Shown: positions 2,708-29,069 of the stretch, piece after piece | Position numbering within the stretch: the first letter of the stretch is position 1 | Layout: each line of letters starts with the position of its first letter | Assembly: GCF_018314255.1 (NCBI RefSeq) | Contig: NZ_CP073066.1 | Span: 930,001 to 994,000 of the forward strand | Direction: 5' to 3' | DNA length: 64,000 bases | From: Lentilactobacillus buchneri | GTDB lineage: Bacteria > Bacillota > Bacilli > Lactobacillales > Lactobacillaceae | Notes under the pieces: model-generated | Seen by the model: only the letters and a program-made list of their open reading frames with translations | The model's database searches: none | Told to the model about the DNA's origin: nothing | Translations under genes and position numbers: made by a program

Positions 2708-4453
2708 GTGGACGACAAAATTGAAGACGCTTACCAACAATGGACCAATCAACCTAATTTACCAGAAAATCTTGTACTTGATTTAAATAAAATGAAAAAT
2801 GATTCAGATCAAAAAAAGGATGCATTCGGAACGGTTCTCTCATTTGGAACTGCCGGAATGCGTGGCGTGCTCGGTGCCGGCACCAACCGGATGAACATCT
2901 ACACCGTTCGCCAAGCTGCTGAAGGCCTGGCATCATTTATGGATACCTTGGATGAAGCCACCCGCAAGCGCGGCGTTGCCATCAGCTTTGACTCCCGTTA
3001 CTATTCAAAAGAATTTGCCCATGAATCTGCCAAAGTCTTAGGTTATCACCATATCCCAAGCTTTGTATTCGACGACATTCGCCCTACCCCTGAGTTGTCA
3101 TTCGCTGTTCGCCATTTGAACACCTATGCCGGGATCATGATTACCGCATCCCACAACCCGAAGCAATACAACGGCTTTAAGATTTACGGCCAAGATGGCG
3201 GCCAGATGCCACCGAAGGAATCGGATCTGATTACTTCATATATCCGCAAGAACAGCGACTTGTTCGCTATCAATGTTACGCCAGAACAAGAGCTGCGTGA
3301 AGCTAAAATCATGAACCTGATCGGCGAAGCAGTCGATCAAGCCTACTTGGAAAAAGTGCAAACTGTCAACATCGACCACGACCTGATCAAAAACGTTGGG
3401 GCCAACATGAAATTCGTCTACTCACCACTTCACGGAACCGGTAAAATTATCGCTCGCCGGGCCTTGGAAGCCGCTGGTTTCAAGAATTACGTCGTCGTGT
3501 TGGAACAGACTATCGCCGACCCCGAATTCCCAACCACCCCATTTCCCAACCCAGAGTTCCCGCAAGCCTTTGATTTGGCCCGCGAACTCGGTAAGAAACT
3601 CTCTGCCGACGTGCTGATCGCTTCTGATCCCGACGCCGACCGCTTAGGCTGTGCCGTTCGTCAGCCTGATGGCGACTACACCCTCTTAAGTGGGAACCAA
3701 ATTGCCAGTGTCCTCCTGAACTACATTTTGGCTGCCAAGAAGAAAGCCGGCGACCTGCCAGCCGATGGGACGATCGTTAAATCAATCGTTTCAACTGATT
3801 TGGCACCCAAGATTGCCGCTTCGTACGGGGTTGCCACCAACAACGTGTTGACCGGCTTCAAATTTATCGCCGAAGCCATTCACCACTACGAAACCGAACA
3901 CGATCATACCTTCCTGTTTGGCTTTGAAGAGAGCTTTGGTTATCTGATCAAGCCGTTCGTTCGTGACAAGGATGCCATTCAGACCGTATTGTTACTGGCT
4001 GAAGTGGCTGCCTACTACAAGAGTCAGGGCAAGACCTTGTACGACGGCGTTCAAGAAATGTTCCAGAAGTACGGTTACTATGCTGAAAAGACCATCGCCA
4101 AGGAATTTGACGGCCTCGACGGTAAAGACAAGATGGCCCACATCATGTCTGAACTCCGTGACAATCCACTGACTGAATTTAACGGCCACAAAGTCTTGAG
4201 TCACGCAGATTACCAGTCATCAAAATTGACGGATCAAGATGGCAAGCAGACGACCATTGACCTGCCGAAGTCCAACGTCTTGAAATACTGGCTGGACGAT
4301 GAAACCTGGCTGGCTGTTCGGCCTTCCGGAACTGAACCTAAAGTGAAGTTCTACTTGGAAGTCGATGACAAGAGCCAGGACGCAGCTGATAAGAAACTTG
4401 CCGGCTGCGTTGATGCCGTGGATAAGATGATTGACAAATTGATGAATAACTAA
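2708..4453 (+). CDS. pgm: Alpha-phosphoglucomutase (phosphohexomutase family)
   Basis: A 581-residue phosphohexomutase that interconverts glucose-1-phosphate and glucose-6-phosphate, linking glycolysis to cell-wall and glycogen-type sugar nucleotides. The family blocks appear in order: the phosphoserine loop TASHNPKQYNGF (Ser148), the metal loop DPDADRLG, the sugar-specificity loop EESFGYL and the phosphate-binding loop RPSGTEPKVKF near the C-terminus. Length matches the long PgcA-type enzymes. The start is GTG at 2708, seven bases after aaggaggg; the ATG five bases upstream is in another frame. It is monocistronic with its own promoter and terminator. Confidence 0.95.
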   Translation: MDDKIEDAYQQWTNQPNLPENLVLDLNKMKNDSDQKKDAFGTVLSFGTAGMRGVLGAGTNRMNIYTVRQAAEGLASFMDTLDEATRKRGVAISFDSRYYSKEFAHESAKVLGYHHIPSFVFDDIRPTPELSFAVRHLNTYAGIMITASHNPKQYNGFKIYGQDGGQMPPKESDLITSYIRKNSDLFAINVTPEQELREAKIMNLIGEAVDQAYLEKVQTVNIDHDLIKNVGANMKFVYSPLHGTGKIIARRALEAAGFKNYVVVLEQTIADPEFPTTPFPNPEFPQAFDLARELGKKLSADVLIASDPDADRLGCAVRQPDGDYTLLSGNQIASVLLNYILAAKKKAGDLPADGTIVKSIVSTDLAPKIAASYGVATNNVLTGFKFIAEAIHHYETEHDHTFLFGFEESFGYLIKPFVRDKDAIQTVLLLAEVAAYYKSQGKTLYDGVQEMFQKYGYYAEKTIAKEFDGLDGKDKMAHIMSELRDNPLTEFNGHKVLSHADYQSSKLTDQDGKQTTIDLPKSNVLKYWLDDETWLAVRPSGTEPKVKFYLEVDDKSQDAADKKLAGCVDAVDKMIDKLMNN

Positions 4454-25457: not shown

Positions 25458-25886
25458 TTATGAATAATCCAACTCAAAATCTTGGGCGTCAAAATAACTC
25501 AGCTTGGAGTTGAATAAGTAATTGCTAACATATCCAAGCGTAACCGGAATCACCAAGAAAAGTAAGCTAACCAAGACAATATTCATCAGATTGGCATTGC
25601 CATAACCATTAACTGCAGCGATTGGTCCGATCAAGCCGGCAAAGCCAAAGCCCGCCATCATCCCGACACAGACCGCACTAATCGGTGCCATTAAAACGGC
25701 CGCCATTCCAGTCAAAGTCAAGAAGAAAGCAGCTTGTGGAAATACTGGCAGCAAAGCCTTCAACAATTGATTAAGCAAGGCGCCGGGGACCAGTGCAACA
25801 ATGATCCCAACCGACAGCCCGTTTAACGTATTCATAATGAGCTCACGACCGTTCAGCCGTGCTGATGGTTCTGCTGTTAAATTCAT
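25458..25886 (-). pseudogene. PTS IIC-like permease with a large internal in-frame deletion
   Basis: 142 residues, while family members (PTS_EIIC_2 type, such as the protein at 57416-58510) have about 350. Residues 1-75 match the family N-terminus, residues 76-142 match its C-terminus (GFGFAGLIGPIAAVNG, then the last two helices and a short acidic tail), and the middle is missing. The junction falls near MMAGF-GFAG and keeps frame. The ATG follows the dehydrogenase stop codon directly. Transport activity is unlikely. Confidence 0.7.
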
Positions 25887-26879
25887 CTATTCGCCTACCT
25901 CATGAGGGCTCTTTTGCCCATTCAAAATCATCATAACGTCATTCAAAGCAATCTCAACCATATTTTGGACGGCCACTTCGGTATAGAAACCAATGTGTGG
26001 CGTCACGTTGACGTTGGGCATTGCCAGTAACTTCTTTAAATTATCGTTATCAATTGGTTTGCCGGTTAAATCTTGGCCGACAATCGTATTCTCGCCTTCA
26101 AAGGTATCAATTGCGGCGGCGGAAATTTCCTGGTCCTCCAAGGCGTTCACCAAAGCGCCGGTATCCACCACTTGGCCCCGGGAAGCATTGATAAAAATTG
26201 CGGAGGGCTTCATCTTCTTGAAGACGTCGGCGTTAATCATCTGGTTGGTCTCGTCAGTCAATGGGGTATGCATGGTCACGATATCAGCTGTTTTGAAGAC
26301 CGTTTCGTGATCAACGTATGTCAACGTGTCGTTGAGTTCTGGTCGATGAATCGGATCAGCGGCAATCACCGTGGCACCCAGCGCTCTAAAAATTCGGGCA
26401 ACCGCGCTGCCGATTTTGCCGGCACCAATAATGCCAACCGTTAAAGTATGAATTTCACGTGCTTCGACACCCTTCCAGCTGAAGTCGCCGTGCTTTTCGC
26501 GTTCACCCACTTCACCGATGTGTCGAAGCAGGCTCATGACATCGGCCAAGACCAGTTCGCTGACAGACCGTGGTGAGTAGGCCGGCACGTTGGTAACGAC
26601 CAAGTCGTTTTGCTTAGCCTGGTCCAAATCAATGATTTCATACCCGGTGATCCGCAAGGTAATCTGCTTGATCCCAAATAAATGGAGTTTCTCGTAAATT
26701 GTCGGATCTGAGACTGGTCCGTGCTGCTGAATCACAATGCCGTCGTAACCTTTGGCAAGGTCAACTGTTTCAGCGTTTAACGGTACCGAGTTGGTATCTA
26801 CCTGGACACCGTTTTGCTTAACCCAGCCATCCAGTGGTTTTTGTTCGTCTGGTCGAACATTGTACATTAAAATTTTCAA
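25887..26879 (-). CDS. D-2-hydroxyacid dehydrogenase (D-hydroxyisocaproate/D-lactate type)
   Basis: 330 residues. Reduces 2-keto acids to D-2-hydroxy acids with NADH. Rossmann motif GIIGAGKIGSAVA (near residue 149), catalytic Arg in NASRGQVVD, Glu in DTFEGE and His in TPHIGFYTE, all in family order. It lies 17 bases after the aminotransferase in the same operon, which points to amino-acid-derived keto acids (for example phenylpyruvate or ketoisocaproate) rather than pyruvate alone (inference). The operon is under the leader-peptide attenuator at 28090-28284. Confidence 0.9.
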   Translation of the reverse strand: MKILMYNVRPDEQKPLDGWVKQNGVQVDTNSVPLNAETVDLAKGYDGIVIQQHGPVSDPTIYEKLHLFGIKQITLRITGYEIIDLDQAKQNDLVVTNVPAYSPRSVSELVLADVMSLLRHIGEVGEREKHGDFSWKGVEAREIHTLTVGIIGAGKIGSAVARIFRALGATVIAADPIHRPELNDTLTYVDHETVFKTADIVTMHTPLTDETNQMINADVFKKMKPSAIFINASRGQVVDTGALVNALEDQEISAAAIDTFEGENTIVGQDLTGKPIDNDNLKKLLAMPNVNVTPHIGFYTEVAVQNMVEIALNDVMMILNGQKSPHEVGE

Positions 26880-26896: not shown

Positions 26897-28075
26897 TTAT
26901 TTGACTGACTGTTTTTCAACGTATTTTTGAATGCGGCTAACGGCCTCTTGAATATTTTCCTCGCTGACTGCGTAACTGATTCGGACGTAGCCTTCGCCGC
27001 CTGGCAGGAAGTACGAACCTGGAATTAAGGCAACTTTGGCTTCCTTGGCCAAGTCATAACAGAATGCTTCACTATTCTGGTTTAAACCAGCTGGAATTTT
27101 GGCGAAAACATAGAAGGCGCCATTTGGATTAGGACAGCTGAAGCCGGCTTTTTCCAAACCAGCAACTAGCAAGTCGCGGCGCTTCATGTACTCCTTCTTC
27201 ATTGGCAGGGCATCGTCCATACCGTTCTTGAATGCTTCTTCGGCGGCAGCCTGGGCGTTGGTGGTCAGTGACGTGATCGTAAATTCACTGACCTTGGCGA
27301 TTTCATTGATGATATCTTCGGGCCCACAGATCATCCCGACTCTCCAGCCAGTCATGGCGTGAGACTTGGAAACACCGTTCATGACAAGGGTTTGTTCCGG
27401 CAGGATCGACCCCATCGAAACGTGGGTGCCGTCATAGGTCAACTCACTGTAAATTTCATCACTTAAACAAATAATGTCGTGCTTGGAAATGACGTCCGCC
27501 AACTTCTGTAAATCGTCTTTGTGGTAGGTAACCCCGGTCGGGTTGTTAGGGAAATTGAGGATCACCGCTTTAACAGTATCTTTATTAGCCTCAATCGCTG
27601 CAGACAATTTTTCCGGTGACAGCACAAAGCCATTATCCGAGGTGTCCACAAAAATTGGTTTGGCACCGGCCAGCATTAAGATCGGCACGTAGAGTGGGAA
27701 AATTGGTGTTGGGACGATCACGGTGTCGCCAGGGTTGATCATGGCAGTCAATGCCGAGTAGATGGCGCCAGTTGCCCCTTCAGTCATGATAACTTGTTTG
27801 TCAGGATCGTAATTCAGACCGTATTTCGTGTTCAAGAAGTTCGCAGCTGCCTGACGGAGTCCTTCTGTCCCCCGGGAGTTGGTGTAGTGACTTTCGTTAT
27901 CGTCAATTGCCTTAATAGCGGCCTGCTTAACGTGTTCCGGAGTGTTGAAATCAGGCTCACCCAAGGTTAATTTGACGATGTCTGGAATCGCTGAAATCTT
28001 CTGGTTGAAAGTCAAAATTGCGGCAGGCGTTAACGCAGCTACTCGTTTGTTCATCTTATCTGATAATTTACTCAT
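26897..28075 (-). CDS. Class I aminotransferase, probably aromatic
   Basis: 392 residues, PLP-dependent fold-type I aminotransferase of the PatA/AraT group. NFPNNPTG (Asn contacting PLP), SDEIYSELTY (Asp, Tyr), SKSHAMTGWRVG (Schiff-base Lys) and RISYAVSEE (substrate-carboxylate Arg) are present. ATG at 28075 follows aggaggagaacac. Substrate is not readable from the protein. The upstream leader peptide contains six consecutive aromatic codons, so aromatic amino acids are the likely regulatory signal and substrate. The next gene reduces 2-keto acids, completing a transamination-reduction route to hydroxy acids. Confidence 0.9.
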   Translation of the reverse strand: MSKLSDKMNKRVAALTPAAILTFNQKISAIPDIVKLTLGEPDFNTPEHVKQAAIKAIDDNESHYTNSRGTEGLRQAAANFLNTKYGLNYDPDKQVIMTEGATGAIYSALTAMINPGDTVIVPTPIFPLYVPILMLAGAKPIFVDTSDNGFVLSPEKLSAAIEANKDTVKAVILNFPNNPTGVTYHKDDLQKLADVISKHDIICLSDEIYSELTYDGTHVSMGSILPEQTLVMNGVSKSHAMTGWRVGMICGPEDIINEIAKVSEFTITSLTTNAQAAAEEAFKNGMDDALPMKKEYMKRRDLLVAGLEKAGFSCPNPNGAFYVFAKIPAGLNQNSEAFCYDLAKEAKVALIPGSYFLPGGEGYVRISYAVSEENIQEAVSRIQKYVEKQSVK

Positions 28076-28089
28076 TGTGTTCTCCTCCT

Positions 28090-28134
28090 AAAAAGTGGGT
28101 CCTCAAAGTCAACGAACTGACTGTGAGGACCCAC
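28090..28134 (-). terminator. Attenuator terminator upstream of the aminotransferase
   Basis: Minus-strand stem gtgggtcctca / tgaggacccac with inner agtca/tgact, then ttttt. It lies between the leader peptide and the aminotransferase ribosome binding site, so readthrough is required for operon expression. Confidence 0.9.
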
Positions 28135-28222
28135 CAATGGTATAATCCCGCACAGTCAACTCAGTGATCTGTGCGGCCTTTAGTATGCATTACGAAATGC
28201 TTTTGGCTTATCCACAGATCAC
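28095..28222 (-). promoter_or_regulatory. Ribosome-mediated attenuator: five mutually pairing RNA segments
   Basis: Minus-strand segments in order: 1 (28222-28212, gtgatctgtgg, includes the leader stop), 2 (28176-28164, ccgcacagatcac), 3 (28158-28148, tgactgtgcgg), 4 (28128-28118, cctcacagtca), 5 (28105-28095, tgaggacccac). 1 pairs with 2; 2 pairs with 3 (8 bp); 3 pairs with 4 (10 of 11); the region of 4 pairs with 5 as terminator. A ribosome at the leader stop masks 1, so 2:3 and the terminator form. A ribosome stalled at the early aromatic codons leaves 1:2 and 3:4, preventing termination. Confidence 0.8.
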
Positions 28223-28284
28223 ACTCGGAAAAACCAAAAGTAATATCGGCAACTATTCATTTGGATGTTTAAATTATCTGTCAT
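28219..28284 (-). CDS. Aromatic leader peptide (21 codons)
   Basis: Short ORF from ATG 28284 to TGA 28219-28221, preceded by aaggag nine bases upstream. Its C-terminal part reads CRYYFWFFRV: codons 14-19 are Tyr-Tyr-Phe-Trp-Phe-Phe. The position between promoter and attenuator and the six aromatic codons in a row are typical of a regulatory leader peptide that senses charged aromatic tRNAs. No other function is expected. Confidence 0.85.
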   Translation of the reverse strand: MTDNLNIQMNSCRYYFWFFRV

Positions 28285-28315
28285 AATTAAAAACTCCTTA
28301 GAATATGTTAAACAC

Positions 28316-28344
28316 ATGATAACGTTTTTAATCTTGTGAATCAA
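28316..28344 (-). promoter_or_regulatory. Promoter of the leader-aminotransferase operon
   Basis: Minus strand TTGATT, 17 bases, TATCAT. Transcription would start near 28309, about 25 bases before the leader ATG and 12 bases after the menG stop codon region. Confidence 0.7.
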
Positions 28345-28355
28345 GGGAAATTTTG

Positions 28356-29069
28356 TCAGGGCTTCATTCCCCAGTGAAAAGCAGCGGCCCCAAAAGTGAA
28401 TGGACGATAGTGAACGTCAACCAGGCCGGCGTTTTGAAACATTTCCACCAACTGTTGCGCCGAGACAAATTCGGCAGTGGTTTTTTGTAAATAGGCGTAC
28501 TCCTGATATTTATTGACGGCCACTTTTGCCATTAATGGGACCAAATCAAAGTAAACCCGCCAGCCGAATTTGATAACCGGATTGGTTGGCTTGGACGTTT
28601 CCAGGCAGGCAACCTGCCCCCGGGCGTGCACCACCCGGCTCATTTCATGGAGCACCTGGTCAGCATCCGGAACATTTCTGAGACCGAAGCCAATCGTGGC
28701 GATGTCAAAGTGGTTGTCATCATATGGCAGCTGCATCGCATCCCCTTTAACCAAGGTTACCCGATCCTGCAGGCCGGCTGCACGAACCTTCTTGTCAGCA
28801 AGTTTCAGCATCTCTTCACTAAAGTCGAGGCCAACAACTTGTCCGGAGGGCCCGACTGCCTTGGCCAAAGCAATTGTCCAATCCCCGGTCCCGCAGCAAA
28901 CATCAATCGCAAAGCTCCCCGGTTCAACGTTGAGCTGCTGCATGACCAACTTTCGCCAGTGCTTATGATTCCCCAAACTAATCAGCGAGTTCATCCCATC
29001 ATAGTTGTCCGCAATTTGATCAAATAATGATTCAACTTTTGTTTCCGGCGTCTTGTTCGTCAGCGTCAT
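28356..29069 (-). CDS. menG: Demethylmenaquinone methyltransferase
   Basis: 237 residues, SAM-dependent methyltransferase of the UbiE/MenG type performing the last step of menaquinone synthesis. SAM-binding DVCCGTGDWT (near residue 56), family segments NYDGMNSLISLGNHKHWR and GFGLRNVPD, and the C-terminal FTFGAAAFHWGMKP are characteristic. It is divergent from a MenA-like prenyltransferase, so the two steps after the naphthoate ring are encoded together. No other men gene is in the window. Confidence 0.95.
   Translation of the reverse strand: MTLTNKTPETKVESLFDQIADNYDGMNSLISLGNHKHWRKLVMQQLNVEPGSFAIDVCCGTGDWTIALAKAVGPSGQVVGLDFSEEMLKLADKKVRAAGLQDRVTLVKGDAMQLPYDDNHFDIATIGFGLRNVPDADQVLHEMSRVVHARGQVACLETSKPTNPVIKFGWRVYFDLVPLMAKVAVNKYQEYAYLQKTTAEFVSAQQLVEMFQNAGLVDVHYRPFTFGAAAFHWGMKP

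Follow-up and report, generated by a model that had tools for sequence, protein, structure and literature searches.

A putative leader-peptide attenuator with aromatic codons before an aminotransferase operon of Lentilactobacillus buchneri, and related leaders in Lactobacillales

In Firmicutes, the pathways of aromatic amino acids are usually said to be controlled by T-boxes or TRAP, whereas leader-peptide attenuators are known from the his and trp operons of enterobacteria, with six-segment logic in his. The locus described here raises the question of whether a short reading frame rich in aromatic codons, located before an aminotransferase operon of Lentilactobacillus buchneri, is such an attenuator. 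It lies in a window of 64,000 nucleotides (contig NZ_CP073066.1, positions 930,001 to 994,000), and an earlier note on this DNA had read it as attenuation of the trp-operon type. Conservation among orthologues, compensatory changes and the aromatic-pathway genes found downstream support that reading. The element is real and conserved, extends far beyond one operon, and is best explained as a ribosome-mediated attenuator. Very probably, it acts on transcription as a six-segment relay that senses charged aromatic tRNAs.

The leader element and its operon

The promoter, ribosome binding site, 21-codon reading frame with the run Tyr-Tyr-Phe-Trp-Phe-Phe and terminator named in the earlier note are all present on the minus strand (28345..28076). 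They follow the order sigma-70-like site, Shine-Dalgarno sequence, 21-codon ORF, alternative pairings and terminator. The leader is located between a menG-like gene (ending at 28356) and the aminotransferase gene (starting at 28075), and its parts are as follows.

28316..28344 (-): promoter-like site TTGATT-17-TATCAT, from a pattern scan (9/12 matches)
28294..28299 (-): Shine-Dalgarno sequence AAGGAG of the leader, mostly invariant in alignment A1
28219..28284 (-): leader ORF MTDNLNIQMNSCRYYFWFFRV, 21 codons plus TGA (ATG at 28284, TGA to 28219)
28231..28240 (-): segment 1, the aromatic codons CTTTTGGTTT; partner 28209-28200
28213..28220 (-): segment 2a, GATCTGTG, starting within the leader stop codon; partner 28173-28166
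28200..28209 (-): segment 2b, AAGCCAAAAG, partner of segment 1
28166..28178 (-): segment 3, GGCCGCACAGATC, with segment 2 or segment 4 as alternative partners
28148..28161 (-): segment 4, AGTTGACTGTGCGG, partner in the 3:4 helix
28115..28125 (-): segment 5, CACAGTCAGTT, in the 5′ arm/loop of the terminator
28105-28095 (-): segment 6, the 3′ arm of the terminator, followed by the U tract (28094-28090)
28090..28134 (-): intrinsic terminator GTGGGTCCTCA...TGAGGACCCAC plus TTTTT, hairpin of -29.0 kcal/mol

Because the promoter pattern scan gave 8 sites overall vs 6.1 in shuffles, support for the promoter-like site comes mainly from conservation: the hexamers TTGATT/TATCAT, or TTGCTT/TATGAT, occur at the equivalent place in several orthologues. 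The leader region folds at -79.3 kcal/mol compared with a shuffle mean of -51.5 (z -5.8; 0/200 shuffles as low). The U tract of the terminator runs directly into the Shine-Dalgarno sequence of the aminotransferase gene.

Helices 1:2, 3:4 and 5:6 are mutually exclusive with helices 2:3 and 4:5. Exclusive pairings had been described before, among five segments; six describe the leader better, because the aromatic codons themselves pair downstream (CTTTTGGTTT with AAGCCAAAAG). The overlap claimed between the stop codon and GATCTGTG is likewise found, but this stretch belongs to the second segment and not to the first. The GCC of segment 2b also complements the GGC of segment 3. In addition, TTGACTG(TG) of segment 4 is complementary to segment 5; this pairing is seen in the sequence and stands outside the covariation counts, since the terminator half aligns poorly. 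Combining the crossing helices 1:2 and 2:3 into a pseudoknot was considered and set aside, because segment 2b is common to both and mutual exclusion is the better reading.

No Rfam family reached its cut-off at the window leader. The Rfam scan of the window gave no T-box over the gathering score and a single hit, a PyrR binding site (RF00515, 44089-44195 (-), 60.8 bits). A search of a plasmid collection for the leader element gave no match.

The genes downstream of the leader are the following.

26897..28075 (-): class I/II aminotransferase of 392 aa (PF00155), the proposed regulated gene
25887..26879 (-): D-2-hydroxyacid dehydrogenase of 330 aa (PF02826/PF00389)
25458..25886 (-): gene of a PF13303 (PTS_EIIC_2) membrane protein, internally deleted, with two matched stretches

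The nearest NCBIfam model for the aminotransferase is PRK07309 (544.6 bits, below its cut-off of 576). The PF13303 gene of the window lacks about residues 78-287 of its homologue; near full-length versions are encoded in L001, L003 and L005. An ISL3-type transposase (PF01610, 23536-24942 (-)) is encoded just downstream of the operon.

Conservation and covariation

The aminotransferase scan yielded 10 named Lentilactobacillus loci (otakiensis, parakefiri, sunkii, parabuchneri, kefiri, kisonensis, dabitei, rapi, diolivorans and farraginis). A search of the genus covered 24 genomes and, after removal of duplicates, 19 distinct orthologous loci were obtained. The leader string TTTTGGTTTTT is present in 19/19 of these loci (aminotransferase identity at least 68.8%), 152-663 nt upstream of the gene. 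In contrast, it is absent from the 1.4-1.5 kb upstream of all 10 distant aminotransferases that could be aligned (25-56% identity; L030, L031, L033-L040; 11 were fetched, and L032 gave no alignment). Thus, the leader is not a chance occurrence.

L025 and L027 retain the leader despite differing sequence further upstream. In four loci (L006, L007, L008 and L020), insertions separate the terminator from the aminotransferase gene, and the leader is intact. The inserted stretches are repeat-like hairpin units of ~100 nt that end in T runs, and they look like small mobile or repeat elements. At positions 400-523 of L026, a Ref68 / Lacto-3 RNA (RF02840) was matched with 101.8 bits.

CAGTC of segment 5 is kept in 19/19 loci though the terminator stem varies. 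Automatic detection found a terminator in 68/73 loci; of the five others, L002 and L005 have one that is visible by eye. An aromatic-run leader ORF occurs in 73/73 loci, a count that follows partly from the construction of the model. In L074, L084 and L087 the run is YYFRFF in place of YYFWFF. The Trp codon is therefore dispensable, and the leader sensor spans Tyr, Phe and Trp codons together. Where CGG has replaced the Trp codon in these three loci, segment 2b changes in step. Conservation reaches beyond the aromatic codons to the preceding QLN, whose Asn codon is mostly AAT (alignments A2 and A3).

The orthologue alignment that had been put forward as a check was carried out, and both the aromatic codons and the pairing segments are kept, with compensatory changes. 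On the 19-sequence alignment (18 distinct rows), helix 3:4 shows two pairs with compensatory change (5 cells vs 1.3 in shuffles). The wider alignment contains 57 matches, 55 of them distinct. Helices 1:2 and 3:4, towards which this alignment leans because it was fitted to them, are paired in 98.4% of cells, with both-side changes at 10/18 pairs and 62 both-side-change cells vs 15.3 in shuffles (0/500 shuffles). When they are slid by one to three columns, pairing falls to 32-53%. Taken singly, helix 1:2 is paired in 97.3% of cells, with both-side changes at 6/10 pairs, and helix 3:4 in 99.8%, with both-side changes at 4/8 pairs; one 3:4 pair occurs as G-C (25), A-U (21), C-G (4), G-U (3) and U-A (1). 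Helix 2:3, which lies outside the fitting model, is paired in 94.0% of cells and has 13 both-side-change cells vs 2.6 (0/500 shuffles). Its part between segments 2a and 3 is paired in 95.6% of cells and its GCC:GGC part in 90.1%. A control for 2:3 slid by -3 columns gave 14 both-side-change cells, yet only 15.3% of its cells are paired. The shuffles do not remove relatedness, whereas the column slides do.

Ribosome position and the proposed relay

The leader stop codon starts one base ahead of segment 2a in 39/57 loci. Most of the remaining loci have it 3-4 bases upstream or 5-6 bases downstream of that position, and in L027, L125, L092 and L093 it is found 24-29 nt beyond the start of segment 2. 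A terminating ribosome would cover segment 2a, whereas a ribosome on the aromatic codons would not. We propose that, when Tyr-, Phe- or Trp-tRNA is short, the ribosome stalls on YYFWFF, covers segment 1 and leaves segment 2 free. Helix 2:3 would then form and segment 4 would pair with segment 5, so that the terminator 5:6 would be blocked and the aminotransferase operon transcribed. When aromatic amino acids are plentiful, the ribosome at the stop codon would cover segment 2, allowing 3:4 and 5:6 to form and ending transcription. If the leader is not translated, helices 1:2, 3:4 and 5:6 would form, and the operon would also be off.

This scheme was examined by masked folding, in which the stretch covered by the ribosome was removed and the transcript ended in segment 5. 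With a stalled ribosome, 2:3 was favored over 3:4 in 46/48 loci, and the median number of 4:5 pairs was 10.0. With the ribosome at the stop codon, 3:4 was favored over 2:3 in 48/48, with a median of 2.0; the median without a ribosome was 5.5. The number of 4:5 pairs was higher in the stalled state in 48/48 loci, by more than one pair in 34, and never lower by more than one. A cruder measure, which mixed any upstream pairing with 4:5, favored the stalled state in 64/68 loci (by more than 0.2 in 22), and one locus was opposite by more than 0.2.

The window's own leader is expected to have 12.69 4:5 pairs in the stalled state vs 12.60 with the ribosome at the stop codon. These values are nearly equal at equilibrium, so discrimination between the two states would need kinetics. 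Moreover, when the transcript is ended at segment 4, 3:4 beats 2:3 even with a stalled ribosome in 41/53 loci. The proposed relay therefore requires helix 2:3 to arise while segment 4 is still untranscribed, and the order in which the segments are made would permit this.

TnaC is a known case of nascent-peptide arrest in response to a free ligand, and the leader peptide QLNSCRYYFWFF might similarly stall in the exit tunnel on a free aromatic compound. The residues before the run are conserved, e.g. QLN(S/N/T), with synonymous changes in the Q, L, C and R codons, which speaks for such an arrest. However, the composition of the run itself is loose (YYFWFF, FYFWFF, YYFRFF, YYFSYF and FWFWFF were seen), and leaders of the RF04312 type, described below, carry WQNWRR or HHHH, following the function of the gene; both observations fit codon sensing. 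Arrest at the stop codon would also cover segment 2 and thereby favor termination. Nascent-peptide arrest is therefore an improbable explanation, and we retain stalling on the aromatic codons.

Expression induced by starvation would indicate a role of the operon in biosynthesis or salvage rather than in catabolism. As a suggestion, the operon of the window may turn the 2-keto and 2-hydroxy acids of aromatic amino acids back into the amino acids themselves, and the PF13303 protein may serve as a transporter. New members of the aromatic regulon are also suggested, among them the D-hydroxyacid dehydrogenase and this PF13303 protein.

The proposed attenuator resembles those of the enterobacterial his and trp operons in its leader codons for the regulated amino acid, a stop codon located at a pairing segment, helices that exclude one another and an intrinsic terminator, with six segments as in his. 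It differs in belonging to another phylum, in serving three aromatic amino acids together, and in the longer form found in other families. Two papers describe His leader-peptide attenuation in Firmicutes, with T-boxes serving other lineages (PMC2965389, PMC9413887); those leaders concern His only and other lineages, and the likeness is one of description. Also similar by description is uORFC-13-1 before aroF (DAHP synthase) in Acholeplasma, a uORF that has one or more Phe codons and is accompanied by a terminator (PMC8632094); it has 24 members, only from Acholeplasma and environmental sequences. The earlier remark that this principle is rarely reported in Firmicutes was thus right in spirit, although the His leaders and the Acholeplasma aroF uORF were already in print. 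Further papers concern a leucine-rich attenuator peptide of S. aureus (PMC5794164), a uORF of ilvB in Corynebacterium (PMC10272879) and pilus attenuation in S. gallolyticus (PMC3894217). In the open-licence literature, we found no report from Lactobacillales of a leader with aromatic codons; earlier studies or subscription journals may contain one.

Related leaders, downstream genes and two Rfam families

Two covariance models were used, R1 built from the 19 orthologous loci and R2 from the 57 wider matches. R1 matches 71/397 Lactobacillaceae genomes, in 12/40 genera, and R2 matches 86/395 Lactobacillales genomes, in 33/80 genera. In a class-wide set, R2 matched 5/398 genomes, 4 of which are Lactobacillales. 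We read 141 loci, namely the listed matches outside the window's genus and five inside; G698 was omitted because its downstream side falls off the contig. A short ORF with an aromatic run is present in 140/141 loci (exception L121), with a leader Shine-Dalgarno sequence of at least 4 of 6 in 134/140. Since R1 and R2 contain leader columns, the presence of a leader in their matches is not independent evidence. In 53/140 aromatic loci, the complementarity of the leader codons to the downstream stretch was reached by at most 1/40 shuffles.

Which gene lies downstream does not depend on the search model. The first recognized gene was defined as the first to match any of eleven reference proteins. 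In 137/141 loci it runs in the same direction and belongs to, or is associated with, the aromatic pathway, as expected for the targets of an aromatic sensor. It encodes an aminotransferase (54 loci), AroE (27), a TrpX-type ABC transporter (21), a 178-aa PheA-like protein (17, of which 15 also have DAHP synthase), a transketolase (6), DAHP synthase (6) or a PF13303 protein (6), and in the remaining 4 loci it is another gene or none. The references were drawn from the same locus set, and sampled members were assigned to families with Pfam or NCBIfam; the label PheA-like rests on the N-terminus, as this protein has no Pfam match. In L167, L180, L188 and L210 more than 350 nt separate the leader match from the start of the first recognized gene, L072 and L160 end near a contig end, and in L185 the first recognized gene is ambiguous, with 26% identity to aroB. 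Two matches without a leader, L121 (serC/serA) and L255, were read as chance.

The genome of the window contains a second leader, MIKINSKINRFYYYWFV (...FYYYWFV; G000:C1:1272514-1272665, L132), before DAHP synthase and 3-dehydroquinate synthase (aroB). Together with the leaders of other genomes, this second copy indicates that the element is not limited to the aminotransferase operon. The same device, with other codons, is found before aro genes, trp-type genes and one his gene in other genomes.

In the families with aroE or TrpX downstream, the leader takes a longer form, in which GTTTGTA…CATG comes after the stop codon and an additional segment pair precedes the terminator. Of 41 sequences tried, 40 could be aligned (L176 lacks the anchor string). 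The helices of the off state are paired in 95.0% of cells, with 14 both-side cells vs 5.0 (0/500 shuffles), and those of the on state in 96.0%, with 12 both-side cells vs 5.3 (1/500 shuffles). Helix 1:2 is 98.0% paired and too invariant to tell, with 193/500 shuffles reaching its count. Covariation in this longer, enterococcal form is weaker than in window-type leaders. The parity of the chain is unchanged, so the longer form would be the same relay extended by two segments.

Narunsky et al. (2024, PMC11109978) placed the trpB motif (SRC-39-1, RF04312) among the strong riboswitch candidates and counted more than 900 members. Its most frequent downstream neighbour is an uncharacterised ABC transporter, and the authors were unable to dismiss a classic attenuator. 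Among Lactobacillales, RF04312 matches 159/295 genomes at E 0.001 and 52/295 over its cut-off; class-wide, it matches 11/250 genomes. We read 37 RF04312 loci, mostly best matches and not a random draw. In 34/37, an ORF lies just upstream of the motif and carries one or two Trp codons close to its end, most typically as SWQNWRR; the exceptions are L253 (aromatic type), L252 (HHHH) and L255 (none). Under a strict rule, Trp falls within the last 12 residues in 32/37 loci vs 0.13 expected from shuffles, and at least two Trp are present in 28/37 vs 0.005 expected. This ORF and segment 2 lie outside the Rfam search model.

The stretch after the stop codon pairs with the first arm of the motif in 95.4% of cells, with 12 both-side cells vs 2.1 (0/500 shuffles). 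In a leader version with Trp codons, the published hairpins of the motif correspond to helices 3:4 and 5:6 (53 cells vs 11.3). The Trp codons themselves pair downstream (90.5%, 8 cells vs 2.0), with further pair types no better than in shuffles (212/500), and at 25/34 Trp-type loci their complementarity was reached by at most 1/40 shuffles. On this sequence evidence, RF04312 looks like the 3′ half of a Trp version of the leader.

The codons also track gene function, with Trp leaders before TrpX-like or TrpB proteins and the His leader before a HisZ-like gene. By BLAST, a TrpX-like protein is encoded downstream in 29/37 loci, L253 included; the TrpX identity rests on L141 (351 bits, below the model cut-off of 390). 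L228 precedes trpB (TIGR00263), and the downstream proteins of L235 and L239 look the same by eye. The HHHH leader of L252 (G747, from another family of the class) precedes a HisZ-like protein (218 bits, below the cut-off of 271.65). L224 and L250 have no downstream gene by the rule used, and L221 and L255 have other genes.

A metabolite riboswitch or a protein-binding leader, with the ORF being incidental, would account for the strong conservation of the RNA and agrees with the published view of the trpB motif. The regular presence of Trp codons upstream, the covarying helix between the post-stop segment and the motif, and the match between codons and gene function argue against it, making this explanation very unlikely.

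The second family, RF02863 (sRNA_2410, 'Enterococcus sRNA 2410'), exceeds its cut-off of 61 at the leader in L136, L137, L138 and L146 (70-88 bits), all of which precede aroE-DAHPS operons, and falls just under it in L148 and L142. The window leader has no RF02863 match; we regard the family as the same element before aroE-DAHPS. Rfam types it as 'Gene; sRNA', and a terminated leader would resemble an sRNA in RNA-seq, but an independent small RNA acting in trans after premature termination is the least likely explanation of all, given the ORF and the codirectional aromatic-pathway gene downstream and the terminator present in nearly all loci where it was looked for.

RF04312 scores 20.7 bits at the window leader, below its cut-off of 59, a score that is uninformative by itself. 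The absence of any RF04312 match in 11 orthologous loci had at first led us to take this score as chance. L142 matches both RF02863 (60.7 bits) and RF04312 (47.3 bits) at one place, each below cut-off, which reopens that reading.

We consider it likely, though with less confidence than for the window leader itself, that all these leaders form one attenuator class with exchangeable codons (Tyr/Phe/Trp, Trp or His) and extendable segments. This class would be a main aromatic/tryptophan control of Lactobacillales and would include RF04312 and RF02863, both of which should then be reclassified. Classic ribosome stalling seems to operate in a large share of one order, where a single architecture serves different amino acids. 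For a riboswitch candidate of more than 900 members and an sRNA family, this offers a testable mechanism and would spare searches for a ligand.

Among the loci read, L095 also contains a fluoride riboswitch (RF01734) at 4090-4162, with 38.3 bits.
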